This document shows positions 1,474-16,421 of a stretch of DNA of 64,000 bases, piece after piece. Below the pieces are notes generated by a model, which saw only the letters and a list, made by a program, of their open reading frames with translations, was not told the DNA's origin and searched no databases. The position numbers and the translations under genes were made by a program. This stretch comes from Microvirga brassicacearum. GTDB taxonomy: Bacteria; Pseudomonadota; Alphaproteobacteria; Rhizobiales; Beijerinckiaceae. Location: contig NZ_VCMV01000013.1 in NCBI RefSeq assembly GCF_008757455.1, forward strand, positions 261,237 to 325,236, in the 5' to 3' direction. How positions within the stretch are numbered: the first letter of the stretch is position 1; every line of letters begins with the position of its first letter.

Positions 1474-2129
1474 TCTGTGACCCCGAACTTTTTGTGAATC
1501 CAATCCGCGATCTTGGCCTGCGGGTATCCCAGCAACCAGTAGATGGCGGCCATGGCGGTCAGCATTTCGATCACGCGGAACGATTGTGACCGGATCTGCA
1601 TGGCGGTGTGGGCGAGGTCGCCCACGGCGATAACGGAAACCAATGATGTGTCCTTGAACAACGTCACCCAGGTCGTCGCCAGTACCGGCAGCACACGTCG
1701 CCACGCCTGGGGAAGAACGATCTTGCGAAAGGCTTGGGCTTCGCTCATTCCCAGCGCGAGCGCTGCCTCGGTTTGTCCCTTGCGGATCGACTTGATGCCG
1801 GAACGAAAGGTTTCGGAATTGTAGGCGGTGTTGTTCAGCGACAAGGCCACGAGGCCGGTGATGAATGGCGAAAAGGCGATGCCGAATACAACCGGCATCA
1901 CGTAGAATGCCCAATAGACCACGAGAATGATCGGCAGATTGCGGAAGAGTTCCACGAAGCAAGTGGCGAGAAGCGCCACCGGCCGAAGGCGCGACTCGCG
2001 CAGCATCGCAACGCCGATACCGCATGGGACCGCAATCGCCATCGTCAGGACGGTGAGCGCAATGGTGATGAGCGCACCGCGAGCGAGCGCGCCTGCGCTA
2101 GCGGGAATGATCGTCCAATCCAGGTTCAT
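1470..2129 (-). CDS. Polar amino acid ABC transporter, permease (second)
   Basis: 219-residue HisM/GlnP-type inner-membrane permease with about five hydrophobic segments. The conserved cytoplasmic EAA loop that docks the ATPase is visible as [20 protein letters not shown], preceded by the ELFRNLP segment characteristic of polar amino acid permeases. The ATG at 2129 overlaps the TGA of the preceding permease and the gene's own TGA overlaps the ATPase start, so all three are translationally coupled. It probably forms a heterodimer with the permease encoded at 2126-2791. Confidence 0.95.
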
Positions 2130-2791
2130 GACCGCCCCAGGAACGCGATGCGCTTGTAGACCATGTCGACGGCGCGAGTGACGGGGAAGATGATGAGAAA
2201 ATAGATGATCATCACAGTCGAGAAGACCTCGACAGGCGCATAAGACTGGCCCGCCACCGCATCGGCACGGCGCATCAGTTCCGGCACGGCGATGACGGCC
2301 GCGATGGCGGTGTCCTTGATGGCGAGCGACAGCAGGGATCCAAAGGCCGGCATCATGCGGACGATCGCTTGCGGCAACACGATCTTGCGGACGATTTGCG
2401 GCCCCGACATCCCGAGTGCGAGGCCCGCGCGGACTTGGCCGGGACGGACCGATTCTATACCGGCACGGATGACTTCGGCCACGTAGGCGGCGAGGTGGAA
2501 CGACAATGCGAAAAGCGCCGACCAGAATGGGGGCAGGTTCCAACCCGTGATGGCAGGGAGGGCAAAATAGATCCACACCAAGACGACGAGCACCGGGATG
2601 GCGCGCATCGAATCGATGTAGAAGACAAGCACAACGCGGAGCCACTGTGGCCCATAGCGCCGCGCGAGCCCCACCAGCGTCCCAAGGATAAGACTGCACG
2701 CCGCAACGCCGCCGGAAAGCAGCAGCGTAACCTGCAGACCGTCGAGCAGGAAGCGCCAGCTTTGCAGGACGGGATCGTAGTTGAAGTCCAT
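2126..2791 (-). CDS. Polar amino acid ABC transporter, permease (first)
   Basis: 221-residue HisQ-like permease. It has about five transmembrane segments, a DSMRAIP segment corresponding to the usual E-x-R-x-x-P region, and an EAA-type loop reading AGLALGMSGPQIVRKIVLP. It follows the binding-protein gene on the minus strand after a 97-base gap containing a strong hairpin, and overlaps the next permease by ATGA. Translation from the ATG at 2791 gives the normal family length. It is the partner of the permease at 1470-2129. Confidence 0.95.
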   Translation of the reverse strand: MDFNYDPVLQSWRFLLDGLQVTLLLSGGVAACSLILGTLVGLARRYGPQWLRVVLVFYIDSMRAIPVLVVLVWIYFALPAITGWNLPPFWSALFALSFHLAAYVAEVIRAGIESVRPGQVRAGLALGMSGPQIVRKIVLPQAIVRMMPAFGSLLSLAIKDTAIAAVIAVPELMRRADAVAGQSYAPVEVFSTVMIIYFLIIFPVTRAVDMVYKRIAFLGRS

Positions 2792-2837
2792 GAGAGGAAC
2801 CGCTTCAGAGACCGAGACAGGACCGGCGAGAAGGCGA

Positions 2838-2864
2838 CGATGCCGGACGTATTGCCCGGCATCG
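2838..2864 (-). other. Intercistronic hairpin after the binding-protein gene
   Basis: A perfect 9-bp inverted repeat (CGATGCCGG / CCGGCATCG) with a 9-base loop lies between the binding-protein stop and the first permease start. No T-run follows it on the minus strand. Such hairpins after binding-protein genes usually stabilise the upstream mRNA segment or attenuate read-through so that the binding protein outnumbers the membrane subunits. That role is inferred here. Confidence 0.6.
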
Positions 2865-2888
2865 GCTGATCGATTGCGCGGCCGCGAA

Positions 2889-3725
2889 TTACATCGTTTC
2901 GACGATGTGCTCTTCTTCCTTCTGGAGGGCCGGCAGCATCGGCTCGGAGATGGATTTCAGCCATTTGAGGAATTCCGGCTGGTTCTTATCGAGCGCGAGA
3001 CCGATCTCGTTGGCGGCTTCCGTGCTGTCTTGGCAATTGTTGCCATGCGGGAGAGCCGCGAGACCCTTCACCTTCTTGTTCAACGCGATCCACGGAATGC
3101 GGTTGATGGGCGTGACATCGGAACGGCGGGCCATGATTTCCTCGACGGGTGCCGCGGTGCCGGCGCTCGAGACGCCACGCAGAACTGCCTTTGGGAAACG
3201 CTGCTTCACCCAATTCTCCTCACCGCCACCAGTGAAATACGCAATCGTGACGTCTGGGCTGTTGAAATCGTCCACCGACTTCGCATTCGCCACCTTGGGA
3301 TTGTCCGCACGCCCAAAGACGCACAGGCTGGTCTTGGAGTAGGTAACGAAATCCACCACGTTCTGGCGCTCCTTCGTGACGGAGAGCGGCGAGATGGTGA
3401 GATCGACCTGATTGGACGCCAGAACCGGAACCTTGGTCTCATGGGAGACTGGAACGGCGACGAGTTTCACGCCGAGGCGCTTGGCGTATTCTTTCGACAG
3501 TGTCCATGCTGGCCCGGCCCATGCTTCGCCCGACCCTTTGGTATCTTCAATCAGCCACGGCGGGTTTGACAATACGCCCACGCGCAACTGACCGGCCTTT
3601 TTGATCGCGTCGATCCGCGCGCTCGATCCCGGGGCGGGCACGTCCTGCGCGTGCGCGGCCCCCATCGCCACTCCGAGACCGAGGACGGCGGAGGCAAAGA
3701 GACGAGTTGTTCGTGAAAACGGCAT
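2889..3725 (-). CDS. Extracellular substrate-binding protein, polar amino acid type (SBP family 3)
   Basis: 278-residue periplasmic binding protein. A Sec signal peptide covers about residues 1-27, with likely cleavage after AHA. The lobe I start LRVGVLSNPPW and the SVTKERQNVVDF segment, whose Arg usually binds the ligand carboxylate, place it in the family of LAO and glutamine-binding proteins. It is the first gene of the minus-strand transporter operon, followed by permease, permease, ATPase and a GntR regulator. Divergence is clear in lobe II, where a TGGGEENW segment replaces the common form, so the ligand may not be a standard amino acid. Confidence 0.94.
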   Translation of the reverse strand: MPFSRTTRLFASAVLGLGVAMGAAHAQDVPAPGSSARIDAIKKAGQLRVGVLSNPPWLIEDTKGSGEAWAGPAWTLSKEYAKRLGVKLVAVPVSHETKVPVLASNQVDLTISPLSVTKERQNVVDFVTYSKTSLCVFGRADNPKVANAKSVDDFNSPDVTIAYFTGGGEENWVKQRFPKAVLRGVSSAGTAAPVEEIMARRSDVTPINRIPWIALNKKVKGLAALPHGNNCQDSTEAANEIGLALDKNQPEFLKWLKSISEPMLPALQKEEEHIVETM

Positions 3726-4106: not shown

Positions 4107-4613
4107 ATGTCGGATAACAATATTGAATTCGCCCGTGCGTCCGAGGCCGCAATCGTCGGCGCGTTGATAAGAACGATGGATCGATACTACCGACCCGGTG
4201 AGGACCTGCTGCCGGAGACAGATTACGCGGCCATGGTGGCGCAGACGCTGGAACAGCAGGAGGGAACCCGCTTTCTCCTGGCACGAGCGCCTGACAATCG
4301 ACCCGTCGGACTAGCATGCATCACGATCATGCGTCCCGGCCGAGATTTGAAGGGATTGCTGTACCTGAAGGATCTCTTTGTCGTTGCCGAGGCGCGCGGA
4401 CAGGGAGTCGGAAGCCGGCTCCTGCGATTTCTCGCGCGTTTCGCGACGCAAAACGGGATTGCACGCATGGATTTTACGACGGACCGCGCCAATCTCGCGG
4501 CGCAACGCCTCTATGCATCCCTCGGCGCCGTCGTCCAGGAGAAGGTCTATTATACTCTTCCCGTCGATGCATTGCGACGTCTCGCAGACGGCGGCCCGTC
4601 GGCGGATTTTTAG
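4107..4613 (+). CDS. GNAT-family N-acetyltransferase
   Basis: 168 residues from the ATG at 4107. The acetyl-CoA pyrophosphate-binding motif A is clear: LYLKDLFVVAEARGQGVGSR, with the R-G-Q-G-V-G loop at about residues 101-106. The C-terminal NLAAQRLYASLGA segment is the usual motif B region. It transfers an acetyl group from acetyl-CoA to an amine; the substrate is unknown. It sits between the divergent transporter operon and the convergent LysR gene, and may detoxify or tag an amine from this locus, which is inference. The frame is open further upstream, but residue conservation starts only near this ATG. Confidence 0.9.
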   Translation: MSDNNIEFARASEAAIVGALIRTMDRYYRPGEDLLPETDYAAMVAQTLEQQEGTRFLLARAPDNRPVGLACITIMRPGRDLKGLLYLKDLFVVAEARGQGVGSRLLRFLARFATQNGIARMDFTTDRANLAAQRLYASLGAVVQEKVYYTLPVDALRRLADGGPSADF

Positions 4614-4621
4614 CGCGTTCG

Positions 4622-5524
4622 CTAAACGCGGCCTTCAGATTGGCGGGCTTCGCTCAAGATCCAGTCGCGCAAGATGGCGAGGTCTGCGTGCAACGGGCGG
4701 GAAGCGGGAGTCGTCAGCCAATAGCCATTCTTGCTCGAGAAGCCGAGGCCGAGAGGGTTGACGAGTTGACCGCTCGCAAGCTCGTCGAGAATCAAGCTGC
4801 GAGGGACGAGCGCAAGTCCTTGGCCACTGATTGCCGCGCGAATGACCAGCGCGTAGTAGCCAAATCGGATGACGCGAGGCGGCCTGAAGTCCGAAAATCC
4901 ACAGGCTGCGCCGAAATCGCTCCAGCGCAAAGGTGTCTGTAAATGGTCGAGAACCGGAAAATTGCGAACGTCGTCGGCAGCGTTCAGTCCGCCGTTCCGC
5001 GCGATGAGATGCGGGGAGCTGGCGAGGACGACGTCGCGCCCGAGAACGTAGTTCGCATCCCAGCCGGGCCACGTGCCATCTCCGAAACGGAACACCGCAT
5101 CGGCTTCCTCCAGGGTGTCGCTCGGCGCGAAGGTGGTGAATTGAATATCGATTCTCGGATGGAGTTCCGCGAACCGCGAAAACCGCGGCATGAACCACCG
5201 GTCTCCAAGAATAGGTAGCACATGCAGGCGAATGGTGGGCTGCGACGAACGCAATCCCGCCAAGCGCACTGCGGCTGTTTCCAGCGCGCCGAGCGCGAGG
5301 CGCGCCTGCTCGATGTAGATGACCCCCGCTTCGGTGGGCGCAAGGCCGCGGCTGGTGCGCGTGAAGAGGCACATGCCCGCGAGCTCTTCGATGCTCTTGA
5401 GTTGCTTGCTCACGGCACTCTGCGTGAGGTGCAGCGCCTGCGCCGCAGACGAAACCGTTCCATGCTGCGCGAGGGAAACGACCACGCGCAGTGCAACCGT
5501 GGTCGGAAGATGTGTTCTCGTCAT
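4622..5524 (-). CDS. LysR-family transcriptional regulator (GcvA-like)
   Basis: 300 residues. The N-terminal winged helix-turn-helix covers about residues 5-65 (GTVSSAAQALHLTQSAVSKQ) and is followed by a LysR_substrate effector domain. The ATG at 5524 was chosen because the HTH begins a few residues later; upstream in-frame starts would add about 60 residues of non-conserved sequence. It is divergent from the C-N lyase gene, with 128 bases between the starts, the standard arrangement for a LysR activator and its target. It likely senses the pathway substrate or an intermediate. The gene ends 8 bases from the convergent GNAT stop. Confidence 0.93.
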   Translation of the reverse strand: MTRTHLPTTVALRVVVSLAQHGTVSSAAQALHLTQSAVSKQLKSIEELAGMCLFTRTSRGLAPTEAGVIYIEQARLALGALETAAVRLAGLRSSQPTIRLHVLPILGDRWFMPRFSRFAELHPRIDIQFTTFAPSDTLEEADAVFRFGDGTWPGWDANYVLGRDVVLASSPHLIARNGGLNAADDVRNFPVLDHLQTPLRWSDFGAACGFSDFRPPRVIRFGYYALVIRAAISGQGLALVPRSLILDELASGQLVNPLGLGFSSKNGYWLTTPASRPLHADLAILRDWILSEARQSEGRV

Positions 5525-5652
5525 TGTGTCCGCCTCGACCGAGAGGGGAGGCCGCAATGCGGCTATTCCATTTCGGACTACCTTCGAGGAAATCAATTCA
5601 ATTGTCCACATCTGATGCCGGTGCAAGCATTTGAACATCAGGAGAAATGCAA

Positions 5653-7059
5653 ATGACCCAGCCCGTCCGCCTTTGGGGAGCCCGGTTCCGCACACCGCCC
5701 TCGCCGGCACTGATGCGGCTCTCCCGCGCCCCGGAGAGCTATTTTCGCCTTGTGCCCGAGGACATCAAATCTTCGATCGCCCACGCGCGTGAACTGGTGC
5801 GGGCGGGGATTCTGACGGAGGGCGAAGGAAACAAGATTGCAGAAGTGTTGGCTGCGATTGGCGAGGATTTCGCGGCTGGTAAGATCGCGCCTTCTCAGGC
5901 CGACGAAGATATTCATACGTTCCTTGAGCGGGTCCTGACAGAACGGCTTGGGACCATTGGCGGCAAGCTGCGCGCCGGGCGCTCGCGCAATGACCAGGCT
6001 GCAAACGATCTCAAGCTTCACCTCCGCGGTGCGGCACGCCGGATCGTTGAGGCCGTACTTGCTCTGCAGGACGCCCTGATCGCGCAGGCGAGCGAGCATC
6101 AGACGACGCTCGCTCCAGGCTTTACGCATCTGCAACCTGCGCAACCGATCTCGTTTGCGCATCAACTTCTAGCCCATGCGCAGGGTTTCTCCCGCGACGT
6201 CGAGCGGATGCAGGATTGGGATCGCCGCTCAGCGCGTTCGCCGCTCGGTGCCGCTGCTTTGGCCGGCTCGGCCATCGCGCTGCACCCGGAATTGTCCGCA
6301 CGGGAACTTGGCTATGATGCGCCGTGTGAGAATTCGATCGACGCGGTCGGCAGCAGAGACCACGTGGCGGAATTTCTGTTCGTCGCCGCCATGCTCGGCG
6401 TCAATCTGTCTCGGTTGGCAGAAGAGATCTTCCTCTGGTCGTCCAAGCAATTCCGATGGGTCGTGCTCGACGATGGCTACGCCACCGGCTCGTCGATCAT
6501 GCCGCAGAAGAAGAACGCGGATATTGCCGAGCTTACGCGCGGCCGCGCGGCGCGGCTGATCGGCGGGCTGAACGCAATGCTCGCCGCCCTGAAAGGTCTT
6601 CCCTTCGCGTATAATCGCGACCTCTCGGAAGATAAATGGGCGGCTTTCGAAGCCATTGATACGCTCGATCTCGTCTTGCCGGCGATGTCCGGAATGATCG
6701 CAACGATGACGGTCGACCGCGACCGGCTGAAGCTGCAATCGACCGACGGCTTTACGCTCGCGACCGAGGTCGCGGATTGGCTCTCGCGAACCGGCGTCCC
6801 GTTTAGCGAGGCTCACGAGATCACCGGTTCACTCGTCCGCTATTGCGAAGAAAAGGGCCTCGACCTGTCGGCGCTTTCGCCGGCAGATCTGGCCGCGGTT
6901 GATGCCCGTTTGACAGCCGACGTGCTGCCATGCCTGACCGCGGAAGCGGCGGTAGCAGCCCGCAGGGGATACGGCGGGACAGCACCAGAACGAGTGGCCG
7001 AGCAGATCGCCCGGCTGAAAGAAACGCTTGCTCGGCAGCGCCAGTGGGTGACTGGCTAG
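5653..7059 (+). CDS. Argininosuccinate lyase family C-N lyase (fumarase/aspartase superfamily)
   Basis: 468 residues with the superfamily signatures in order: WGARF at 8-12, RSRNDQ at 110-115, THLQPAQP at 158-165 and the catalytic loop GSSIMPQKKN at 279-288. Enzymes of this fold eliminate fumarate or a related acid from an N-substituted aspartate. The start at 5653 is preferred over the ATG at 5647 because AGGAG at 5640-5644 is then 8 bases away rather than 2. Small departures from typical ArgH are visible: KKNAD instead of KKNPD, and QAAND after the RSRND motif. Its place in a transporter-rich catabolic operon, without other arginine biosynthesis genes, argues against a purely biosynthetic ArgH. 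The same family contains EDDS lyase. Confidence 0.9.
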   Translation: MTQPVRLWGARFRTPPSPALMRLSRAPESYFRLVPEDIKSSIAHARELVRAGILTEGEGNKIAEVLAAIGEDFAAGKIAPSQADEDIHTFLERVLTERLGTIGGKLRAGRSRNDQAANDLKLHLRGAARRIVEAVLALQDALIAQASEHQTTLAPGFTHLQPAQPISFAHQLLAHAQGFSRDVERMQDWDRRSARSPLGAAALAGSAIALHPELSARELGYDAPCENSIDAVGSRDHVAEFLFVAAMLGVNLSRLAEEIFLWSSKQFRWVVLDDGYATGSSIMPQKKNADIAELTRGRAARLIGGLNAMLAALKGLPFAYNRDLSEDKWAAFEAIDTLDLVLPAMSGMIATMTVDRDRLKLQSTDGFTLATEVADWLSRTGVPFSEAHEITGSLVRYCEEKGLDLSALSPADLAAVDARLTADVLPCLTAEAAVAARRGYGGTAPERVAEQIARLKETLARQRQWVTG

Positions 7060-7138
7060 CGCAGAGAGACCCTTCGACAAGACCAACAACAGAGTTGCGG
7101 CCCAACCGCGACCTTCATTCAAACCAAAGGGAACTACG

Positions 7139-8008
7139 ATGATGACATGCTATTCGCTTGGCGCGGTCCGGTCGCTCTCGATCGGTCTTGGAACTGCTCT
7201 CGTGATGTCGATTCCTCTGGCGGCTTCCGCGCAGACGGCGGCAGCGGCCTTGCCTGAGAAGATCAAGACCTCTGGCTCTATCGTCGTCGGAATCGAATCC
7301 ACATATCCGCCCATGGCTTATAAGGATCCGAAGTCCAACGAGCGCATCGGCGTTAACGTGGACCTCGTCGAAAAACTTGCCAAGGAACTCGGCGTTTCGG
7401 TGAAATGGGAAGAGATGAGCTTCGAACAGCTCATGACCTCTCTCACGACAGGACGCATCGATATGATCGGCACTGCGATCAGCGATCTACCGTCGCGCCG
7501 CGAGAAGCTCACCTTCGTCGATTACCTGGTAACCGGCGCTCAGCCATTCACGACGAGCGGCAAGAAAGACAGCATCAAGACCGAGGCCGATCTTTGTGGC
7601 AAGACAGTAGGTGCACCCCGCACCACCAATTACTATCCGGTGGCGATCGCCTGGAGCGATAAAAACTGCGTCGGCGCCGGCAAGACGGCGGCGACCGTCA
7701 ACGGCACGGCAGGCGCCACCGCAACGCGCCTTGATCTCAAGCAGGGCCGACTCGACGCTGCCGTTCTCGGGCCGGAATACGTCGCCTATCTGATGGCGGA
7801 TGAGCCGGGCGTGTACGCGCTGGCGGGCGAGCCGTTGATCAAGACGTTGTTCGGGTTTGCGTTCAACAAGAACGAGACAGCCTTGCGCGACGCGGTTGCC
7901 ACTGCCTTGACAGCGACCATGAAGAGCGGAGCCTACAAGCAGGTGCTGCAGAAATACGGTCTCGAGCGACAGGCGATCACTGACGTGACGATCGACGCCG
8001 GCACCTGA
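7139..8008 (+). CDS. Extracellular substrate-binding protein, polar amino acid type
   Basis: 289 residues. The signal peptide ends near residue 31 (ASA-QT). The mature part begins with the family's VVGIESTYPPM lobe I segment, followed by GRIDMIGTAISDLPSRREKL, where the Arg of the ligand clamp falls. Two tandem ATGs (7139 and 7142) are both possible starts. It is clearly paralogous to the binding protein at 10749-11591: both share the KWEE(M/I)SFEQ, SDLP-RR and DLCGKTVGA segments. It is the first transporter gene after the C-N lyase, so it is expected to capture the lyase substrate or a relative. Confidence 0.94.
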   Translation: MMTCYSLGAVRSLSIGLGTALVMSIPLAASAQTAAAALPEKIKTSGSIVVGIESTYPPMAYKDPKSNERIGVNVDLVEKLAKELGVSVKWEEMSFEQLMTSLTTGRIDMIGTAISDLPSRREKLTFVDYLVTGAQPFTTSGKKDSIKTEADLCGKTVGAPRTTNYYPVAIAWSDKNCVGAGKTAATVNGTAGATATRLDLKQGRLDAAVLGPEYVAYLMADEPGVYALAGEPLIKTLFGFAFNKNETALRDAVATALTATMKSGAYKQVLQKYGLERQAITDVTIDAGT

Positions 8009-8036
8009 GCACCGACACTCATCAGCGGAGACCAAT

Positions 8037-9020
8037 ATGCGCGCCGTGATCCTCACTCACGTCGGCGGGCCGGACGCTCTTTCTCTGGCCGAGGTGCCTG
8101 ATCCTCGGCCGGCGACCGGCCACGTCGTCATCGACGTTCATGCGACAGCATTGAACTTCGCGGACCTTCTCCAGCGTCGCGGGACCTATGGAACTCCGGC
8201 GGAACTCCCCAGCATCCTCGGGATCGAATGCTCCGGAACGATATTGGAGATCGGGCCAGATGTGGAAGGTTGGGCGGTGGGCGACGAGGTCTGCGCGCTG
8301 ACCTCGGGTGGAGCCTACGCGGAACGCGTGGCCGTCCCGGCTACGCAGCTCCTACGGAGACCCCGTGGCATCGACCTGATGACGGCGGCCGCTTTGCCCG
8401 AGGCCGCGTGCACGGTGTGGTCGAATCTTATCGACATTTCCGGCCTTGCGGCCGGGGATGTCCTTCTCGTCCATGGTGGGGCAGGCGGCATCGGCACCTT
8501 CGCGACGCAGACGGGGCGGACGATGGGCGCTCGGGTTTTTGCAACCGCCGGCAGTGCCGACAAGCTCGAGCGTTGCCTTGAACTTGGCGCGGAGCGGGCG
8601 ATTTCCTACCGGACGGAGGATTTCGTCGCTGTGATGCACGAGGAAACAGCCGGCCGCGGGGCCGACGTGATCCTCGACAATATGGGTGCCTCATATCTTG
8701 CCCGGAACATCGATGCGCTTGCACCAGACGGGCGGATCGCAATGATCGGGCTTCAAAGCGGGCGCGAGGGGCAGATCCCGCTGGGCCGCATGATGGGCAA
8801 ACGCGGATCCTTGTTCACGACCTCCCTGCGCGATCGGCCGGCGGCCGCGAAGGCGCGGATCGTTGCCGGCGTCAACCGCGATCTGTGGCCTCACCTTGAG
8901 GCGGGCCGGATTTTGCCAGCGGTCGACAAGACCTTTGGCCTCTCGCAGATGGCCAACGCCCATCGATATATGGAAGACGGGCGGCACATTGGAAAAATCC
9001 TCATAAGCGTGAAACGATGA
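8037..9020 (+). CDS. NAD(P)H:quinone oxidoreductase-like, zinc-independent MDR family
   Basis: 327 residues of the medium-chain dehydrogenase/reductase superfamily, closest in pattern to PIG3/TP53I3-type quinone oxidoreductases. The N-terminal NFADLLQRRGTY and the Rossmann glycine motif HGGAGGIG (about residues 146-153) are evident, and the catalytic and structural zinc cysteines of classical alcohol dehydrogenases are absent. It would reduce a quinone or an enal/enone with NADPH. It lies between a binding-protein gene and a permease gene of the same operon (28 and 37 base gaps), so it probably acts on a product of the imported compound; that is inference. Confidence 0.88.
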   Translation: MRAVILTHVGGPDALSLAEVPDPRPATGHVVIDVHATALNFADLLQRRGTYGTPAELPSILGIECSGTILEIGPDVEGWAVGDEVCALTSGGAYAERVAVPATQLLRRPRGIDLMTAAALPEAACTVWSNLIDISGLAAGDVLLVHGGAGGIGTFATQTGRTMGARVFATAGSADKLERCLELGAERAISYRTEDFVAVMHEETAGRGADVILDNMGASYLARNIDALAPDGRIAMIGLQSGREGQIPLGRMMGKRGSLFTTSLRDRPAAAKARIVAGVNRDLWPHLEAGRILPAVDKTFGLSQMANAHRYMEDGRHIGKILISVKR

Positions 9021-9057
9021 GACTGGTTCAGAAGAAGACCCGAGGGAGGCACAGCCG

Positions 9058-9903
9058 ATGACCGATACTGTCTATCAAGTCAGCCATCTCACGCTCGTCC
9101 CGCGCCGCCATTACGGGAGGATGATCGGAGCGGCGTTCGTCTGCGCGGCACTTGCCGCCATTGTGCACGCCTTTGCGGTCGGTCAGATCGAATGGAACTA
9201 TGTGGCGGAGTTCCTCACTGTCCCGGCGATCATGAGCGGTCTCGTCAACACGGTCGTCATGGCGCTTTTGGCGATGGTTCTGGGTATCGTACTCGGCGTC
9301 ATCTTTGCGATCATGAGATTGTCCCACAATCCCGTCCTGTCAGTGACGGCACTCGGGTATGTGTGGCTCTTTCGTGCGATCCCGGCACTGTTGCAGCTGC
9401 TTCTGTGGTTCAACCTCGCGCTGGTCTTTCCAACAATCAGCATCCCCGGAATTTTCTCCGTGCCGACGGTTGCCGTGATGACGCCGTTTGTCGCCGCGCT
9501 TCTGGGACTTGGCATTCAGCAGGGCGCGTTCACGGCCGAAGTGGTGCGCGCCGGTCTTCTCTCCGTCGATCAGGGACAATACGAAGCGGCGCAGACGATC
9601 GGGATGACGCGTCTCAAGATGCTGCGGCGGATCATCATGCCGCAGGCCATGCGTGTGATCGTCCCACCAGTCGGCAACGAGTTCATCGGCATGGTGAAAC
9701 TGACATCGCTCGCAAGTGTCATCCAATACGCCGAGATCCTGCACAGCGCTCAGAATATCTACTACGCCAATTCGCGGGTCATAGAACTGCTGATCGTCGC
9801 ATCGATCTGGTATCTCCTGGTGGTTACAATTCTCAGCCTTATTCAAGGTCGCGTCGAGAAATATTACTCAAAGGGCGTTGCTTCACCGGCGAATGCGAAG
9901 TGA
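9058..9903 (+). CDS. Amino acid ABC transporter permease
   Basis: 281 residues with an N-terminal extension of about 50 residues including one extra hydrophobic segment, then a HisM/GlnP-type core. LFRAIPALLQ and the EAA loop EAAQTIGMTRLKMLRRIIMP identify it. It is the only permease gene in this operon, so the translocation pore is probably a homodimer. The ATPase gene follows 14 bases after the stop. Confidence 0.95.
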   Translation: MTDTVYQVSHLTLVPRRHYGRMIGAAFVCAALAAIVHAFAVGQIEWNYVAEFLTVPAIMSGLVNTVVMALLAMVLGIVLGVIFAIMRLSHNPVLSVTALGYVWLFRAIPALLQLLLWFNLALVFPTISIPGIFSVPTVAVMTPFVAALLGLGIQQGAFTAEVVRAGLLSVDQGQYEAAQTIGMTRLKMLRRIIMPQAMRVIVPPVGNEFIGMVKLTSLASVIQYAEILHSAQNIYYANSRVIELLIVASIWYLLVVTILSLIQGRVEKYYSKGVASPANAK

Positions 9904-9917
9904 CGGAGGTGAAGGAC

Positions 9918-10706
9918 ATGGACACGCAGAACCTTTCTCCGAATGCGCCTATCGTCGTCACTGCCGATGTGCGCAAGCGTTTTGGCACGCTGGAAGTGCT
10001 GAAAGGCATCAACGTCAAAGTCCCGCAAGGCGAGGTTTTGTGCATTATCGGCCCATCCGGTTCCGGAAAAAGCACATTCCTGCGCTGCATCAACCAGCTT
10101 GAACGTATCGATGCCGGTGCTATTTGGGTGGGCGGAGAGCTCGTCGGCTTTCGTCGTGAGGGTGACAATCTCTATGAACTTGACGACGTGCAGATCGCGC
10201 GGCAGCGCCGCTCGATCGGCATGGTGTTCCAACGGTTCAATCTCTTCCCGCATCTCACCGTGACGCAGAACGTGACCGAGGGTCCGATCCAGGTTCTCGG
10301 CGAAAAGCCGGCTGAAGCGCAGGAACGCGCACACGCGCTCCTGGAGCAGGTGGGACTGAGCGACAAGCGGAACGCCTATCCGGCTCATCTTTCAGGGGGG
10401 CAACAGCAGCGCGTGGCCATCGCGCGCGCGCTCGCGATGCGGCCGCAGCTTCTGCTTTTTGACGAACCTACATCCGCTCTCGATCCGGAGTTGGTAGGTG
10501 AAGTGCTCAACGTAATGCGTGATCTGGCGCAGAGTGGCATGACGATGATTGTCGTCACGCACGAACTTGGTTTTGCACGCGAGGTCAGCCATCGTGTGGC
10601 GTTCATGGATCAAGGACAACTGGTGGAGATTGGAGATTCCCGATCAGTGCTGGCCGATCCGCAACAGGCGCGCACCCGGGAGTTCATCTCGGCCGTGCAC
10701 AAATAA
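9918..10706 (+). CDS. Amino acid ABC transporter, ATP-binding protein
   Basis: 262 residues. Walker A (GPSGSGKS) is at 45-52, followed by VFQRFNLFPH, the signature [17 protein letters not shown] and the switch His in VVTHEL. The ATG at 9918 is preceded by GGAGG at 9905-9909 with 8-base spacing, which decides the start over an in-frame GTG at 9909. It powers uptake with the permease at 9058-9903, probably serving both paralogous binding proteins. An insertion of about ten residues before QIARQRRSIG is common in GlnQ-like proteins that carry a YELDD segment. Confidence 0.96.
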   Translation: MDTQNLSPNAPIVVTADVRKRFGTLEVLKGINVKVPQGEVLCIIGPSGSGKSTFLRCINQLERIDAGAIWVGGELVGFRREGDNLYELDDVQIARQRRSIGMVFQRFNLFPHLTVTQNVTEGPIQVLGEKPAEAQERAHALLEQVGLSDKRNAYPAHLSGGQQQRVAIARALAMRPQLLLFDEPTSALDPELVGEVLNVMRDLAQSGMTMIVVTHELGFAREVSHRVAFMDQGQLVEIGDSRSVLADPQQARTREFISAVHK

Positions 10707-10748
10707 GTCGATCAAAAGACCTACATACCAGAGAAATGGAGAGATGAG

Positions 10749-11591
10749 ATGAAGACCGCCACAATACTCTGCTCGTTCGTCGCCCTTCTGACCGCAGCCG
10801 GTGTCAGTGTCGCCCAGGAACTGCCGGAACGTATTGCGTCGAAGAAGGTCATCGTCGTTGCCAACGTCCCGAACTATCCGCCGCTGGAATTCAAGGACCC
10901 GAAGACCGCGACGCTGACAGGACTCGATATCGATCTTGGCAATGCTCTCGCCAAAAAACTCGGCATCGAAATTAAATGGGAAGAAATCAGCTTTGAGCAG
11001 ATGGTGAGCGCCCTCACCACTGGCCGTGCGGACATCATCCTGAGTGGTATGAGCGACCTTCCGGGTCGACGCGACACGCTTAATTTTGTCGACTACCTAA
11101 AATCGGGCGCTCAATTCTACACGACGGCAGATCGCAAGGACGAGTACAAGACCCTGACTGATCTCTGCGGTAAGACGGTGGGGGCAAGTCGGCGGACATC
11201 GTTTCCGAAGGAAATGGAAACTTGGAGCAAGACCGCTTGCGAGGGCGCCGGCAAACCGCCTTTGAAAATCGTCGGCACTGAAGGCTCCGCCGACGCGCGG
11301 ACGCAATTGCGCCAGAAGCGCCTCGATGCCGCTGTCCAAGGCAGCGAGACCTTGCCCTACCTGCTCAATCTCGAGCCCAACACATACGTCATCCTTGGCG
11401 AGCCTTTCACCTCGGTCTATCAAGGCATTGGCATCGCCAAGAACGACACGCAGCTTCGTGACGCGATCGCCAAGGCCCTCAGCGGCATGATGACTGACGG
11501 CTCTTATGCGGAGGTCCTCAAGAAGTGGGAGCTTTCCTCCGCGAAGGTTGACAAGCTGATGATCAACGGCGAGCCGGCCAAAACGCAGTAA
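10749..11591 (+). CDS. Extracellular substrate-binding protein, polar amino acid type (paralogue)
   Basis: 280 residues with a signal peptide of about 22 residues (SVA-QE). Lobe I shows NYPPLEFKDP and GRADIILSGMSDLPGRRDTL. It shares long similar stretches with the product of 7139-8008, indicating duplication within the cluster. It sits immediately after the ATPase gene and before the MmgE/PrpD gene, so two binding proteins flank one permease/ATPase pair. Lobe II differs more than lobe I between the two, which would be expected if they recognise different stereoisomers or analogues; that is inference. Confidence 0.94.
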   Translation: MKTATILCSFVALLTAAGVSVAQELPERIASKKVIVVANVPNYPPLEFKDPKTATLTGLDIDLGNALAKKLGIEIKWEEISFEQMVSALTTGRADIILSGMSDLPGRRDTLNFVDYLKSGAQFYTTADRKDEYKTLTDLCGKTVGASRRTSFPKEMETWSKTACEGAGKPPLKIVGTEGSADARTQLRQKRLDAAVQGSETLPYLLNLEPNTYVILGEPFTSVYQGIGIAKNDTQLRDAIAKALSGMMTDGSYAEVLKKWELSSAKVDKLMINGEPAKTQ

Positions 11592-11609
11592 ACATCGACC
11601 GCACCCTTA

Positions 11610-11635
11610 GCGGGCCGGCGGTAGCGCTGGCCCGC
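11610..11635 (+). other. Intercistronic hairpin after the second binding-protein gene
   Basis: A perfect 7-bp inverted repeat (GCGGGCC / GGCCCGC) with a 12-base partly self-complementary loop lies 19 bases past the binding-protein stop. No T-run follows. The position matches the hairpins after three other binding-protein genes in this window, so an mRNA-stabilising or attenuating role is likely. Confidence 0.5.
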
Positions 11636-11665
11636 CTCCAGATTGCACCTCGGAAGAGTCTAGTC

Positions 11666-13066
11666 ATGGCTGATAATGTTGAGACGACGGGAGTGGCGGC
11701 GGTTGCGCGCTTTGTAACCTCTGCCAGACCTACCGATCTGCCCGAACTGATCCGGCAGAAGGTGGCTCGGCATACGCTTGACACCTTGGCGTGCGGCGTT
11801 GCGGGCGCCGCGTCTCAAGAAGCACAGGCCTGCCTCGATCTTGCCCTCACGACGGAGCAGAGTGGGAGCGTCGCCGTCTGGGGCACCGCTCACGCGCTCG
11901 CCCCCCGTTCGGCAGCCCTCATAAACGGCATAGCGTGCCATGCGTTCGAACTCGACGATACCGGGGGTTGCGACCATTCCGGCGCCGTCGTCCTCCCCGC
12001 CGCGCTCGCAGCCGTGGCGCTGGTTGACCGGCCGGTCTCCGGTTCGGAATTCCTTCTCGCGGTGGTGTTGGGCTACGAAGTCGCCCGCCGCGTTCTTGAA
12101 GCGTGCGGCGGATATGAGCCGCATAACCAAGCCGGCTGGCATTCGACGGCCACGTGCGGCACATTCGGCGCCGCATCAGCGGCGGCGCGAATTCTTCAGC
12201 TTGATGCGGCGGAGGTGGCACACGCGCTCGGGCATGCGGCGAGTTTCAGCGGTGGGCTCTGGGGATTCATCCACGACGGCAGCCAGACCAAACGCATCCA
12301 CGCGGGTCGTGCGGCGGAGGGTGGCCTTTTTGCCGCGATGCTCGCGCGCGCGGGCATCACGGGGCCTTCAACCGTGTTCGAGGACCGCTGGGGCGGGTTT
12401 CTTTCCACGTTCGCTCCCCAATCCGCGAACCCCGAGGCGCTTACGGTGGGTCTTGGTGGACAATGGCGCCTCGAACGCGTGTCCTTGAAGCCTTACGCTT
12501 CCTGCCGGGGCACGCATTCGGCCATAGATGCGTTGGGCGAGTTGATCGATGGTAACGCCGTCGGACTGGAGCAAGTCGAGCGAATCGATATTCGATTGAG
12601 TCAGTTCCTGTTCGACATGTGCGGCGGGCGCGATATCTCGACGCTGCCTTTTGCACAGATGAGTCTTCCTTATGCACTTGCGGCGCGCCTTGTGACCGGT
12701 CGTGCGGATCTTGCCGCCTATCGGGCGGAACGTCGGCAGGATCCTGCCCTGCATGCGGCAATGGAAAAGATTACGCTCGCCGTCGATCCGAGGATCGCAG
12801 CCACCGATGAACCCTATGTGCGTGTCATGATGAGAGATGGGCGTAGTCACGAGACAAGGGTCACGGCGCCTCTGGGATCTCCCGCTAACCCAATTTCTGA
12901 TGAACTCTATTTCGCAAAGATCCGTAGCCTTGCCGGCTTATCTCTCGACGGAGTGCAAACGGAACGACTTGTGACCGGCGTGCTGCAACTGTGGGGCGAT
13001 ACGGATATGCGCTGGCTCGGCGAAGCGTTGTCAGCCAAAAGGTCGCGCCCTGCGGTTTTGAACTGA
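11666..13066 (+). CDS. MmgE/PrpD family protein
   Basis: 466 residues matching the MmgE/PrpD fold through its length: the N-terminal helical domain (HTLDTLACGVAGA), the GIACHAFELDDT segment, HSTATCGTFGAA and the KPYASCRGTHSAIDAL segment of the second domain. Known members include 2-methylcitrate dehydratase, cis-aconitate decarboxylase and the iminodisuccinate epimerase of Agrobacterium. No other methylcitrate-cycle gene is present, so a dehydratase role in propionate use is unlikely. Co-location with an argininosuccinate-lyase-family enzyme makes epimerisation of an N-substituted aspartate the most attractive reading. The start at 11666 gives the usual family length. Confidence 0.9.
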   Translation: MADNVETTGVAAVARFVTSARPTDLPELIRQKVARHTLDTLACGVAGAASQEAQACLDLALTTEQSGSVAVWGTAHALAPRSAALINGIACHAFELDDTGGCDHSGAVVLPAALAAVALVDRPVSGSEFLLAVVLGYEVARRVLEACGGYEPHNQAGWHSTATCGTFGAASAAARILQLDAAEVAHALGHAASFSGGLWGFIHDGSQTKRIHAGRAAEGGLFAAMLARAGITGPSTVFEDRWGGFLSTFAPQSANPEALTVGLGGQWRLERVSLKPYASCRGTHSAIDALGELIDGNAVGLEQVERIDIRLSQFLFDMCGGRDISTLPFAQMSLPYALAARLVTGRADLAAYRAERRQDPALHAAMEKITLAVDPRIAATDEPYVRVMMRDGRSHETRVTAPLGSPANPISDELYFAKIRSLAGLSLDGVQTERLVTGVLQLWGDTDMRWLGEALSAKRSRPAVLN

Positions 13067-13094
13067 GATAAGCCAATTTCGAAAAGAGACCATC

Positions 13095-13970
13095 ATGTTC
13101 GATCGTGAACCGCATCCAGCAAATCCCGCACCGCCCGCTCCGTCCTTTCCTTGGCCGGGCGGTGCTCGCTGCGTTCTTTTTCCGGGCTTCGATGTCGATG
13201 CGGAATCCGTATGGATCGGCATGGATCAACGGAATGTCGATCGCTTGGTGACGATGTCCTATGGTGGCTATGAAGCCCGCGTCGGCGTTCCGAAGATCCT
13301 CAAGCTGCTTGCGCGCCACGAAGTCAAAGCGACGTTCTTCATCACCGGCTGGACGATTATGGCCCATCCCGCTATGTGCGAGGCGATTCTTGCACACGGA
13401 CACGAGGTCGCGCACCACGGGTATCTCCACCTGCGACCGGAGCCAGGGCAGGAGGATGTGATGGTAGAGGAGGTCGATCGCGGGTTTGACGCAATGATGC
13501 GCGTCCTTGGCGTCAAACCGAAAGGATACCGCGCTCCCTCCGGCGAAAGCTCGACCGGATTGCTGCAACTGCTGACCGATCGAGGCATTCAATATTCAAG
13601 CTCTTGGCGCGATGACATCAGGCCTTATCGGCACGTTCTTCCCAATGGACCTGGACCGATTGAAATTCCGGTCAATTACAGTTTCGACGATTGGAACTTC
13701 GGGATGACGCATCGCTCGGGCTCCCGCGCGCTGTTCGGACGTGAGGAGGTCCTTTCGATCTGGCGCGACGAGTTCGATCAGATGCGGGAATGGGGCGGTG
13801 TCACGACGATGATCATGCACCCGCAAGTGACCGGGCGGCCGATGCGGTATCGGATCCTGGACGAATTTCTGACCTATGTGCGCCGCTATGACGATGTCTG
13901 GCTCGCCACCGGGCAGGAAATTGCAGCGCATTACGAACGTTGTGAACGCGACTGCCAGGCGGCAGAATAA
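13095..13970 (+). CDS. Polysaccharide deacetylase-fold amidohydrolase (HpPgdA/PuuE-like subgroup)
   Basis: 291 residues. The NodB-type TIM barrel is shown by FPGFDVDAESVW, which carries the metal Asp, then KATFFITGW, then the metal His pair in HEVAHHGYLH, and YRAPSGESS. There is no signal peptide, so the enzyme is cytoplasmic and does not act on cell-wall glycan. Cytoplasmic relatives include the allantoinase PuuE and bacterial cyclic-imide hydrolases. Within this operon it would hydrolyse a C-N amide or imide bond of a pathway intermediate. It starts 28 bases after the MmgE/PrpD stop and is followed by a ureohydrolase. Confidence 0.87.
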   Translation: MFDREPHPANPAPPAPSFPWPGGARCVLFPGFDVDAESVWIGMDQRNVDRLVTMSYGGYEARVGVPKILKLLARHEVKATFFITGWTIMAHPAMCEAILAHGHEVAHHGYLHLRPEPGQEDVMVEEVDRGFDAMMRVLGVKPKGYRAPSGESSTGLLQLLTDRGIQYSSSWRDDIRPYRHVLPNGPGPIEIPVNYSFDDWNFGMTHRSGSRALFGREEVLSIWRDEFDQMREWGGVTTMIMHPQVTGRPMRYRILDEFLTYVRRYDDVWLATGQEIAAHYERCERDCQAAE

Positions 13971-14021
13971 GCCAGCCGAATTCAGGCGAGAGCGCCACAA
14001 GAAAAACAGGAGAACGCTTCG

Positions 14022-15074
14022 ATGGACCCGGTAAAACTGGAGGCGCTTCGCGCGCGCTACCGCAATGCGAGCGGTGCCGATATCGACGACGCGGATTTTC
14101 GCAAGGCCGCCAGCTTGCAGTTTTCGGGCAGCGACCGGAGAAAGTGGCCCTTTGCTGATCCCGCAACATTCCTTGATGCGCCCTTCCATCCCACAGCCAT
14201 GGAGTCGGCAGATCTGGGCGGCATCGACATTGCGCTGATCGGTGTTCCCATGGACCTCGGCGTGACGAACCGGGCGGGCGCGCGGCTCGGACCGCGTGCA
14301 GTGCGAGGGATCGAACGGATCGGGCCTTACGAACACGTTCTGCGGATGACGCCCATGGCCGAGTGCAAGGTCGCCGATATCGGCGACGTGCCGTTTCGAA
14401 GCAGGTTCAGCCTTGAAAGTTGCCATGAAGACATCGAGGATTTTTTTTCCAAGGTGGTTGGCGCAGGGGTCGTTCCGCTGGCTGTCGGCGGTGATCACTC
14501 CATGACCCGCGCAATCTTGCGTGCGGTCGGACGCGACAGGCCGGTGGGAATGATCCATATCGATGCACATTGTGATACGGCCGGCGAATATGAAGGCTCG
14601 AAATTTCACCATGGCGGGCCTTTCCGTCAGGCCGTCCTCGATGGAGTGCTCGACGCGGAGCGCACCATCCAAATCGGCATTCGTGGCGGCGCTGAATATC
14701 TCTGGGAGTTCTCCTACGTCTCTGGCATGACGGTGATCCACGCCGACGAAGTGGCGAAGCTTGGCATTGCGGCAATTATCCAGAGGGCACGAGAGGTTGT
14801 CGGAGACGGGCCGGTCTACGTTTCGTTCGATATCGACAGTCTTGATCCGGCCTTTGCTCCCGGAACGGGGACGCCCGAGATCGGCGGATTGATGCCACGC
14901 GAGGTTCTCGAAATTCTCCGCGGCCTTGCGGGGCTGAATGTTATCGGGGGCGACGTGGTCGAGGTCGCGCCGCAATACGATGCGACCACGAACACAGCTC
15001 AAGCCGGAGCGCAGATGCTGTTTGAAATCCTATGTCTGGCAGCGACGGCGCGAAACGCAAAGCGGACCACGTGA
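14022..15074 (+). CDS. Agmatinase/arginase-family ureohydrolase
   Basis: 350 residues. The binuclear Mn ligands are all present in three motifs: GGDHS, HIDAHCDT and SFDIDSLDPAFAPGTGTPE. The N-terminal region is longer than in E. coli agmatinase (about 60 extra residues before GVPMDLGVTNRAG). Enzymes of this family cleave a guanidino compound to urea and an amine; characterised members use agmatine, arginine, guanidinobutyrate, guanidinopropionate or formiminoglutamate. Being the last gene of the catabolic run, it may release urea from a guanidino product of the C-N lyase. Specificity cannot be read from sequence alone. Confidence 0.92.
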   Translation: MDPVKLEALRARYRNASGADIDDADFRKAASLQFSGSDRRKWPFADPATFLDAPFHPTAMESADLGGIDIALIGVPMDLGVTNRAGARLGPRAVRGIERIGPYEHVLRMTPMAECKVADIGDVPFRSRFSLESCHEDIEDFFSKVVGAGVVPLAVGGDHSMTRAILRAVGRDRPVGMIHIDAHCDTAGEYEGSKFHHGGPFRQAVLDGVLDAERTIQIGIRGGAEYLWEFSYVSGMTVIHADEVAKLGIAAIIQRAREVVGDGPVYVSFDIDSLDPAFAPGTGTPEIGGLMPREVLEILRGLAGLNVIGGDVVEVAPQYDATTNTAQAGAQMLFEILCLAATARNAKRTT

Positions 15075-15251
15075 TCCTTTGAATGGTACGCGGGGAACCC
15101 GTTGGTGCGAAGCGATCAGTCGTACCCCTTTCGAGCAAGCACTATTCTGGATAAGCGGCGCTAAACCACTCTTCCGGGGCACATTCGTTGCCGAGGAGCT
15201 TTGCAAAGCGTATCGTCCGGGTCGAAACCCCTGACCGGACTGGAGGCACAG

Positions 15252-16421
15252 ATGCCTCGTCGTTTTAGCGTATGGGTGACCGCCTTTTCGTTTCTATTCC
15301 TCCATGTCGATTTCTGGGGCCCCGCGCTTGCGCAACAGCCCTCTGGTCGAGCTGTGGGTGTCATCCCCGACGCCTCTGCACTCCGATCCGCGGGTCGACA
15401 ACCCCTCGCGCTTCAGCAACCTGTCTATATGGGAGACAGGATCCAGACGGGCGCCAGCGGCGAGGCGCAAATCGATTTCATCGACAGCACACGCCTCGTC
15501 GTGGGGCCGGCCTCATCTCTGCTGATCGACAGTTCCGTCATGCGCAATCGCAAGACGATGAGCAGTTTCGTCGTCAGCGCCCTGCGCGGAACCTTCCGGT
15601 TCATCAGCGGCTCGAGCCCAAAACCTGCCTATGCGATCCGCACCCCGACCGCGACCATCGGTGTTCGAGGAACGGAATTCGACTTCGCCGTGTTGCCGGA
15701 TGGCGGTACGGAATTTGTTCTCTTCAAAGGTCAGGCGCAGGTCTGCGACCGCTCCGGGAACTGCACGATGGTGCGCGGATCCTGCAACGCGATTTCCATT
15801 CCTTCGTCCGGTCCGATGCGCTCCCTGCTTGATCGGGAGGAGCGCAACACGAGGCTCCGTGCCAACTTTCCTTATATTCTTGCGCGAAACGCCAGTCTGA
15901 GGCCGGAATTCAGGACGGATGTGCGCACGTGCGGAAACATCGCCGCTGCGAATCCAGGACCAGACGCGAAGGACCCGGCCGGTCCATCTGCGTCCGCGCC
16001 GCCGGCCCCGACGCCGAATCCCCCTTCGGCTCCTCCTTCCCGTCCTGATCCAGCGCCTCCGGCGCAGCCTTCGAGGCCGGACCCGGTGGCCCCGGCAGCG
16101 CCCGCTCAGCCTTCCCGCATCGACACCACACCAAGCCCGCCAGAGCCAAGTCGAAGCCTGAATAACCGTGGACATGGGAAGGGTGACAAAGGGGGGAAAG
16201 ACGGTCACGGCGGTTTCCATGGTGGCGGCCGTGGTGGAGATGGATGGGGAAACCGGAACGATGGCCGCGATCGGGGCGGACACGATCATCGCGGCGATCG
16301 AGGTTCGCGGGATGGCGGACGACGCGGGGGGAAAGACGGCGGACACAGTCAACAAGATGTGTCGCGAGACAGTTGGGGCGCTGATGAAAGAAACGGAGAA
16401 AGGGGAGACAACAGTCGATGA
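15252..16421 (+). CDS. Secreted FecR-domain protein with low-complexity C-terminal tail
   Basis: 389 residues from the ATG at 15252, which has GGAGG 5 bases upstream; a longer frame from 15201 lacks a site. The signal peptide ends near residue 28 (ALA-QQ). The FecR domain spans about residues 50-165, with the conserved YAIRTPTATIGVRGTEFDF segment. Residues 236-300 are proline-rich, and 305-389 are rich in Gly, Asp, Arg and His. There is no anti-sigma or transmembrane part, so it is not a classical FecR sensor; it is a periplasmic partner type. It overlaps the cyclase gene by ATGA, indicating a functional pair. The Gly/Asp/His tail could bind metal or polyanions. Confidence 0.88.
   Translation: MPRRFSVWVTAFSFLFLHVDFWGPALAQQPSGRAVGVIPDASALRSAGRQPLALQQPVYMGDRIQTGASGEAQIDFIDSTRLVVGPASSLLIDSSVMRNRKTMSSFVVSALRGTFRFISGSSPKPAYAIRTPTATIGVRGTEFDFAVLPDGGTEFVLFKGQAQVCDRSGNCTMVRGSCNAISIPSSGPMRSLLDREERNTRLRANFPYILARNASLRPEFRTDVRTCGNIAAANPGPDAKDPAGPSASAPPAPTPNPPSAPPSRPDPAPPAQPSRPDPVAPAAPAQPSRIDTTPSPPEPSRSLNNRGHGKGDKGGKDGHGGFHGGGRGGDGWGNRNDGRDRGGHDHRGDRGSRDGGRRGGKDGGHSQQDVSRDSWGADERNGERGDNSR

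Follow-up and report, generated by a model that had tools for sequence, protein, structure and literature searches.

In Agrobacterium tumefaciens BY6, iminodisuccinate epimerase, a protein of the MmgE/PrpD fold, reportedly works together with a C-N lyase. Breakdown of S-(2-succino)cysteine (2SC) is encoded by the yxe/scm locus, which, in the excerpted text of PMC9706529, comprises a GNAT acetyltransferase, a lyase or monooxygenase, a deacetylase, an ATP-binding cassette (ABC) importer and YxeQ, a protein of unknown function, and which is recognised where at least three of five components are clustered. Argininosuccinate lyase (ArgH) has an active site that is assembled from three subunits (PMC4701392, in excerpt). 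The equilibria of ArgH, adenylosuccinate lyase and 2SL, the lyase of yxe/scm loci, lie towards the reverse reaction (PMC9706529). The present work concerns an operon of Microvirga brassicacearum that lies within a 64,000-nucleotide stretch of contig NZ_VCMV01000013.1 (positions 261,237 to 325,236 of the forward strand; referred to as the window). Its core, which consists of a lyase of the ArgH family, an importer, an MmgE/PrpD family protein and one or more polysaccharide-deacetylase-fold proteins, is a real and widely conserved gene cluster of catabolic type, which occurs in numerous bacteria of soil and plants. We lean towards reading the operon as a pathway that scavenges an N-(1,2-dicarboxyethyl) (N-succino) compound, probably partly cyclic and other than argininosuccinate.

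The operon is composed of nine co-directional genes on the plus strand, from the lyase (5647) to a ureohydrolase (15074), with intergenic gaps of 28–79 bases when the ATPase start is placed at 9972; the gap between permease and ATPase is 14 bases if the ATPase begins at the ATG at 9918. The core genes encode the lyase (5647–7059; TIGR00838), the permease (9058–9903; PF00528), ATPase (9918–10706, with a recomputed ATG start; PF00005) and binding protein (10749–11591; PF00497, SBP_bac_3) of the importer, the MmgE/PrpD family protein (11666–13066; PF03972 and PF19305), which may isomerise or epimerise the substrate, and the deacetylase-fold protein (13095–13970; PF01522, Polysacc_deac_1), a predicted amide hydrolase. 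Gene calls by open reading frame (ORF) length include shadow ORFs, and gene assignments rest on homology matches. Every gene that a first-pass annotation had listed between 4107 and 15074 was recovered by profile matches, each in the family that had been named.

GTDB species genomes were scanned with the window MmgE/PrpD protein, which yielded 71 loci, and the core was scored within each fetched stretch as a lyase of at least 50% identity together with the permease, ATPase, binding protein and deacetylase-fold genes. The full core was present in 61 of the 71 loci, from Alpha-, Beta- and Gammaproteobacteria and one Arthrobacter, and the deacetylase-fold gene in 66; counts of relatives given here contain near-copies (for example, L151 repeats L044, and both are included in the deacetylase and MmgE/PrpD counts). 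Ten loci are short of the full core (L048, L057, L060, L086, L091 and L105–L109), four of which (L057, L091, L106 and L109) are on records of less than 10 kb. In most of the beta- and gammaproteobacteria, and in the Arthrobacter, the order is lyase, permease, ATPase, binding protein, two deacetylase-fold genes (PDA1 and PDA2) and MmgE/PrpD, and most alphaproteobacteria have the lyase, importer and MmgE/PrpD genes with a single deacetylase gene. The lyase is also found, at an E-value of 1e-150 or better, on 87 plasmids in PLSDB, 60 of them from Sinorhizobium. Agrobacterium plasmid pAtA47a carries the genes in the order of the window (GNAT, LysR, lyase, permease, ATPase, binding protein, MmgE/PrpD, deacetylase, speB), without two genes that the window has between lyase and permease, encoding an extra polar-amino-acid-type binding protein (7139–8008, plus strand; PF00497, SBP_bac_3) and a PIG3-type quinone oxidoreductase (8037–9020, plus strand; TIGR02824, 413 bits). 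These two appear to be a Microvirga insert, since they occur together at 60% identity or above in five of the 71 loci, all of them from Microvirga. The Gemmobacter arrangement is that of pAtA47a, except that speB is convergent and no adjoining GNAT gene is listed. Conservation of the gene order elsewhere, which had been set beforehand as a test, was thus borne out by the 61 loci with the core and by the matching order of pAtA47a.

Within Microvirga, MmgE/PrpD and deacetylase genes were found, at the thresholds used, in nine of nine genomes with a type I lyase and in none of ten with a type II lyase. Of the Microvirga genomes that have no clade lyase, G408 carries only the deacetylase, and G406 only a distant MmgE/PrpD protein (35% identity). 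In the other Microvirga cluster loci that were laid out, the deacetylase gene adjoins the GNAT gene and does not lie between MmgE/PrpD and ureohydrolase. The presence of the full core in 61 of 71 loci and the co-distribution in Microvirga indicate that the grouping of these genes is not due to chance.

The window lyase scores 511 bits against TIGR00838, above the argH equivalog threshold of 279.5. Two other proteins of the same genome also exceed it, a canonical ArgH at C15:466297 (598 bits) and a third protein on contig C12 (303 bits), and canonical ArgH (589.5–693.8 bits) was found besides the cluster lyase in all 15 searched host genomes of other loci; the lyase is therefore not the sole ArgH of its genome, a situation that had been set as part of a refuting condition for the first-pass annotation. 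The cluster lyases group in a single clade (31 rows, 100/100) of a 58-sequence tree, sister to the ArgH of Mycobacterium and Arthrobacter (100/99) and with 2SL-type lyases far outside, although this tree carries a long-branch warning that couples, among others, the duck sequence with the cluster clade.

Residues were compared, in the numbering of duck delta-2 crystallin, between 79 clade lyases (79 different sequences) and 19 canonical ArgH. The catalytic residues of the ArgH family are T161, H162, S283, K289, N291 and E296. All clade lyases retain R115, N116, T161, H162, R238, S283, K289, N291, Y323 and K331, and 78 of the 79 retain E296. Asp33 and Gln328 are both present in each of the 19 canonical enzymes and in none of the clade lyases, which have Tyr (38), Phe (30) or His (11) at position 33 and Ala (44), Ser (27), Val (4) or Ile (4) at position 328. 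Ser29 is kept in 64 and is Ala in 15; the corresponding residues of the window lyase (S29, D33 and Q328 in the duck protein) are A28, Y32 and S327. Two substitutions, F224Y and F272W, are fixed throughout the clade and are absent from the two actinobacterial ArgH used. D33, Q328 and S29 are presumably the residues that bind the amino-acid end of arginine in ArgH. Since D33 and Q328 are replaced, argininosuccinate itself is unlikely to be the substrate of the cluster lyase. An ordinary or sole ArgH was considered and rejected on the grounds of the separate canonical ArgH and the loss of D33/Q328 in 79 of 79 sequences.

The residue at position 33 follows the gene content of the loci. Eleven of the 79 lyases are encoded beside an importer at loci whose fetched stretch lacks both the deacetylase and the MmgE/PrpD gene (L154–L159, L193, L198 and L228–L230), and all 11 have His33; all 68 from loci with deacetylase and MmgE/PrpD have Tyr or Phe (a scripted check returned no exception). 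No match to MmgE/PrpD at E 1e-60 was found in the importer-only genomes G301, G354 and G366. In a 39-row tree, the H33 lyases do not group as a single clade, and the group of the window lyase is nested with them; residue 33 and the accessory genes have thus changed together at least twice. This linkage makes the substrate question directly testable in laboratory strains.

The remaining core proteins also bear on the substrate. Of the two ligand-binding residues considered in the binding protein of the importer, an Arg presumably binds the ligand carboxylate and an Asp, in amino-acid-binding relatives, the alpha-amino (alpha-ammonium) group. The Arg is kept in all 108 aligned rows, and the Asp position is occupied by Gln (99) or Leu (9) and never by Asp, in an alignment from which one row was dropped and which has a one-base-wide length difference at the Asp position. 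The retained Arg and missing Asp suggest a carboxylated ligand without a normally placed free alpha-amino group.

The window deacetylase-fold protein has an intact metal triad (D35/H108/H112). The triad is likewise intact in 15 of 16 alpha-type proteins and in 58 of 58 PDA1, and in none of the 58 PDA2, which therefore looks like a metal-less partner of PDA1; the tandem genes at L049:8182-9974 and at similar loci appear to encode an enzyme–pseudoenzyme pair. The window protein shares the NodB fold and a similar length with PuuE allantoinase and HP0310-type deacetylases (TIGR03212, 91 bits; PDB 3qbu and 3cl6). However, its 91 bits are far below the TIGR03212 cut-off of 424.6, and PuuE has a Trp where the window protein keeps H112 of the triad. 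The closest solved relative, 3rxz, is named only 'polysaccharide deacetylase'. The related HP0310 is described, in the excerpt of PMC3084791, as more likely a small-molecule binder and near PuuE allantoinase; the paper regards the two proteins alike as binding small molecules. Homologues of the window protein also occur in other contexts. On contig C82 of the same genome (L237:9032-17998), one with 74% identity is encoded near an importer of similar type, together with genes for M20, M24 and M28 peptidase folds; M20 and M24 genes accompany lyase and MmgE/PrpD at L117, and L118 looks alike. Another, of 43% identity, is on contig C42 (L240:7083-9193) next to an ORF that is cytochrome P450-like by eye only.

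The best matches of the window MmgE/PrpD protein among solved structures are iminodisuccinate epimerase (133 bits) and Bacillus subtilis IRG1 (122 bits). Two catalytic bases, H99 and Y145, are proposed for the epimerase in the excerpted PMC7347537. The first is kept as H104 in the window protein, and His is the sole residue at this position across 78 cluster members (at least 42% identity; six more distant rows were dropped from the alignment). At the position of the second, the window protein has N154 and all 78 members have Asn. The first-pass annotation had the locus epimerise its substrate; the first base is retained, and the exchange of the second from Tyr to Asn weakens this idea.

Taken together, these features suggest the following pathway for an N-succino compound. 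The polar-amino-acid-type ABC importer would take up a carboxylated ligand in which a free alpha-amino group is not in the normal place. A cyclic-amide form would be opened by the deacetylase-fold protein, acting as a metal-dependent hydrolase of small amides like PuuE and HP0310, and the MmgE/PrpD protein may interconvert isomers such that all material reaches the form accepted by the lyase, a step that we propose with particular reserve. The ArgH-derived lyase would then beta-eliminate fumarate, a chemistry expected from its family, in a pocket that its sequence shows to be altered, and would release an amine, urea or guanidine-type leaving group that lacks an arginine-like amino-acid end. 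In several alphaproteobacteria, the ureohydrolase may, afterwards or in parallel, remove urea from a guanidino product. An N-succino compound with release of fumarate is the most likely class because of the analogy with yxe/scm loci and the ArgH ancestry of the lyase; guanidino, ureido, N-acetylated and other N-succino substrates are possible.

Several points weigh against such a pathway, or against its extension to all loci. No gene of the cluster points to a particular leaving group, and the second base of the epimerase is not kept. Ring opening by the deacetylase-fold protein is suggested by fold and kin, and N-deacetylation fits the fold equally well. The roles behind the pocket argument (D33, Q328 and S29) are those that we have assumed. 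Gene content varies as well: PDA1, PDA2 and MmgE/PrpD are present without a lyase within 10 kb at L048 and L060; a Bosea locus (L195) has importer and MmgE/PrpD and neither lyase nor deacetylase in the stretch fetched; L116 has importer, deacetylase and MmgE/PrpD, with no clade lyase in the part of the record that was fetched; and the importer-only loci indicate that the lyase can do without deacetylase and MmgE/PrpD. Finally, L112–L114, three rhizobial loci in which MmgE/PrpD is accompanied by two deacetylase genes, encode a lyase of 36–38% identity to that of the window, which falls beside the ArgH of Burkholderiales and Pseudomonas in the 58-sequence tree (100/97) and is apparently a second ArgH lineage, separately recruited next to PDA1–PDA2–MmgE/PrpD. 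The separate recruitment speaks for the pathway. Although these loci are otherwise similar, their lyases keep D33 and Q328. Either the module works without the pocket change or the substrates differ, and these residues count against a single substrate for all loci.

The first-pass annotation had proposed a guanidino version, in which an N-succino guanidino compound is split into fumarate and a guanidino acid or agmatine-like amine, and the ureohydrolase yields urea and an amine. The accessory ureohydrolase of the window (14022–15074, plus strand), of the agmatinase, guanidinopropionase or guanidinobutyrase type, scores above the TIGR01230 agmatinase cut-off (191.9 versus 174.3 bits) and below the PRK02190 threshold (269 versus 302), and its best solved match is 3-guanidinopropionase (283 bits). 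That the nearest solved ureohydrolases take guanidino acids, and that the lyase derives from ArgH, which releases a guanidino compound, speak for this version. So does the occurrence of ureohydrolases of 65–84% identity inside the cluster in Microvirga, G106, a Rhodospirillales bin, Agrobacterium and Gemmobacter; the gene adjoins the deacetylase gene in the window, G106, Agrobacterium and Gemmobacter. In a sample of 397 genomes of the order, the family (E 1e-125) is present in five of seven genomes with a clade lyase and in 64 of 390 others (Fisher p 0.002, relatedness ignored). However, only two of these seven have it in the cluster, and 64 of the 69 genomes that carry it have no clade lyase at E 1e-170, a threshold that may miss divergent clade members. 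Moreover, a ureohydrolase of at least 60% identity is found in six of the 71 loci, and in the other 65 it is more divergent or absent, so it is no part of the general core. A guanidino substrate is thus possible in alphaproteobacteria, and the general guanidino version is weakened and rather unlikely.

A second Microvirga cluster (L238:3541-10498 and L239:7884-14972) contains an importer, three small genes, a LysR gene and adjacent close homologues of the deacetylase (80%) and ureohydrolase (79%). Neither the lyase nor MmgE/PrpD is matched in it, and one of three searched pieces of the small genes matches DUF3830. The adjacency of these two homologues without a lyase suggests that both act on one compound. 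In Pantoea and Erwinia loci, such as L055:12432-14397, a glycerol-dehydrogenase-like gene and a ureohydrolase of about 43% identity are found on the opposite strand, downstream of MmgE/PrpD.

A broader proposal, offered tentatively and considered fairly unlikely, is that of a widespread, undescribed pathway salvaging cyclic and open guanidino- or ureido-succinates. Here the metal-dependent deacetylase-fold enzyme would open the ring, on its own in Alphaproteobacteria and, in Beta- and Gammaproteobacteria, together with a metal-less sister protein as subunit, MmgE/PrpD would correct isomers, and a neofunctionalised ArgH, including 'argH2' of Sinorhizobium meliloti, would release fumarate and a small urea- or guanidine-type product. 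Tyr/Phe versus His at position 33 of the lyase would then mark the substrate class that a genome uses.

Acetylation–lyase–deacetylation of the yxe/scm kind has a different logic. The GNAT would acetylate an N-succino amino acid, the lyase would split the N-acetyl form, which would not need the ammonium-binding D33, and the deacetylase-fold protein would remove the acetyl group. The fold is indeed that of deacetylases, and the excerpt of PMC9706529 states that 2SL and YxeK have a strong preference for the N-acetylated form of 2SC. In Microvirga and Chelatococcus, the GNAT gene lies next to the deacetylase gene, and GNATs from at least two ORF families are found repeatedly close to the core, within 2.5 kb in 28 of 86 loci by a five-seed search. 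The same search found no GNAT within this distance in the other 58, yet a deacetylase-fold gene is present in 66 of the 71 loci, and deacetylase–ureohydrolase clusters exist where no GNAT was seen (GNAT was not searched for there). We consider this explanation unlikely.

A thioether (S-succino) system, in which 2SC is broken down by a different lyase, is improbable. The yxe/scm locus is the closest described gene combination, and both YxeK and 2SL are missing from 11 of 102 yxe loci according to the excerpt of PMC9706529. However, the window lyase is distant in the tree from the presumed 2SL-type lyases and 24–25% identical to them, the core has no M20 YxeP-type gene, and 2SC has a free alpha-amino group, for which the binding proteins lack the Asp. 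A second argininosuccinate lyase for arginine metabolism with passenger genes is highly improbable, despite the score above the argH cut-off and the argH label in public plasmid records, since canonical ArgH is present in all 16 genomes checked (including that of the window), D33/Q328 are lost in 79 of 79 clade lyases, and the gene is conserved together with an importer and an amide hydrolase. Overall, the conserved catabolic-type cluster and a lyase beyond the sole ArgH stand from the earlier interpretation, and its guanidino and epimerase components, as well as its claim of no counterpart (see below), are weakened.

An observation from S. meliloti 1021 connects the clade with nitrogen metabolism. 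In a tolC mutant, as reported in the excerpted PMC2912261, argH2 (SMb21094) was down 20.7-fold (4.5-fold by PCR) and an adjoining-numbered transporter of unknown function (SMb21095–21097) 10.3- to 17.5-fold, together with nitrogen-assimilation genes; lower expression of transporters for nitrogen-rich compounds was ascribed by the authors to reduced NtrC. The gene name, the locus numbering and the pSymB locus of S. meliloti R14 indicate that argH2 is very probably a member of the clade. A sigma-54 promoter was considered as the cause of nitrogen control and rejected, as no -24/-12 match was found between 420 bases upstream and 60 bases downstream of the starts of 18 lyase genes. Histidine-utilisation (hut) genes lie beside one importer–lyase locus (L193:850-13856) and near two PDA–PrpD loci (L048:13263-14789 and L060:13434-14954). 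HutH matches occur in nine loci besides L193, some of them partial or at stretch ends, and the histidine link was not used as evidence.

Upstream of the operon in the window, a divergent LysR-family regulator gene (4622–5524, minus strand, start recomputed from the 5530 used in the search; PF00126 and PF03466) is followed by the GNAT N-acetyltransferase gene (4107–4613, plus strand; PF00583, 58 bits), which is located beyond it. A separate polar-amino-acid-type importer is encoded upstream of the GNAT gene (700–3725, minus strand). Directly downstream of the operon (15246–18661) are genes for a FecR protein and then a CHASE2-adenylate/guanylate cyclase. A scan for sigma-70 promoters and terminators did not rise above shuffled sequence, with one promoter-like site against a mean of 3.0 and 11 terminator-like sites against 9.6.

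Genes of the clade are labelled argH in public records, and a nitrogen-scavenging pathway may therefore hide behind a misleading name. If true, the proposed N-succino pathway would add to the few salvage routes that release fumarate, those for iminodisuccinate and 2SC, and would give a testable function to MmgE/PrpD proteins and to deacetylase-fold proteins that do not look secreted.

No description of a combination of PrpD/MmgE, argininosuccinate lyase and polysaccharide deacetylase or transporter was found in a search limited to one library of open-licence papers. We take YxeQ to be an MmgE/PrpD protein, which fits two fetched loci, L160 and L161, taken for 2SL-type yxe loci by gene content (their GNAT and M20 genes were recognised by eye). 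The MmgE/PrpD and importer proteins of both match those of the window, the lyase in L160 only; the window proteins are distant from those of L160, with 37% identity over the best piece for MmgE/PrpD and 58% for the ATPase. The importer, MmgE/PrpD and GNAT of the window are candidate counterparts of yxe components, and no YxeK-type monooxygenase was found among the ten operon proteins searched by profile. The claim that the locus has no described counterpart does not hold in that form, since yxe/scm loci combine the same kinds of gene (PMC9706529, in excerpt): an ABC importer, a class I fumarate-releasing lyase, a GNAT, an acetyl hydrolase and YxeQ in one cluster. The two systems differ in the lyase, which in the window is of the ArgH clade and 24–25% identical to those of L160 and L161, in the hydrolase (M20 YxeP versus a deacetylase-fold protein), in the GNAT, which is optional in window-type clusters, and in the active-site signature of MmgE/PrpD. 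Membership of the window lyase in 2SL was ruled out by the same identity and by its position outside the 2SL branch. The iminodisuccinate epimerase system likewise pairs an MmgE/PrpD-fold protein with a C-N lyase, and among solved structures its epimerase matches the window protein best; in contrast, it has Y145 where the cluster proteins have Asn, and the cluster has a deacetylase-fold protein in its core. ArgH shares with the cluster lyases the family and all catalytic residues checked, and actinobacterial ArgH is nearest in the tree, whereas the cluster lyases lack D33/Q328 (79/79), carry F224Y and F272W, and are encoded together with an importer.

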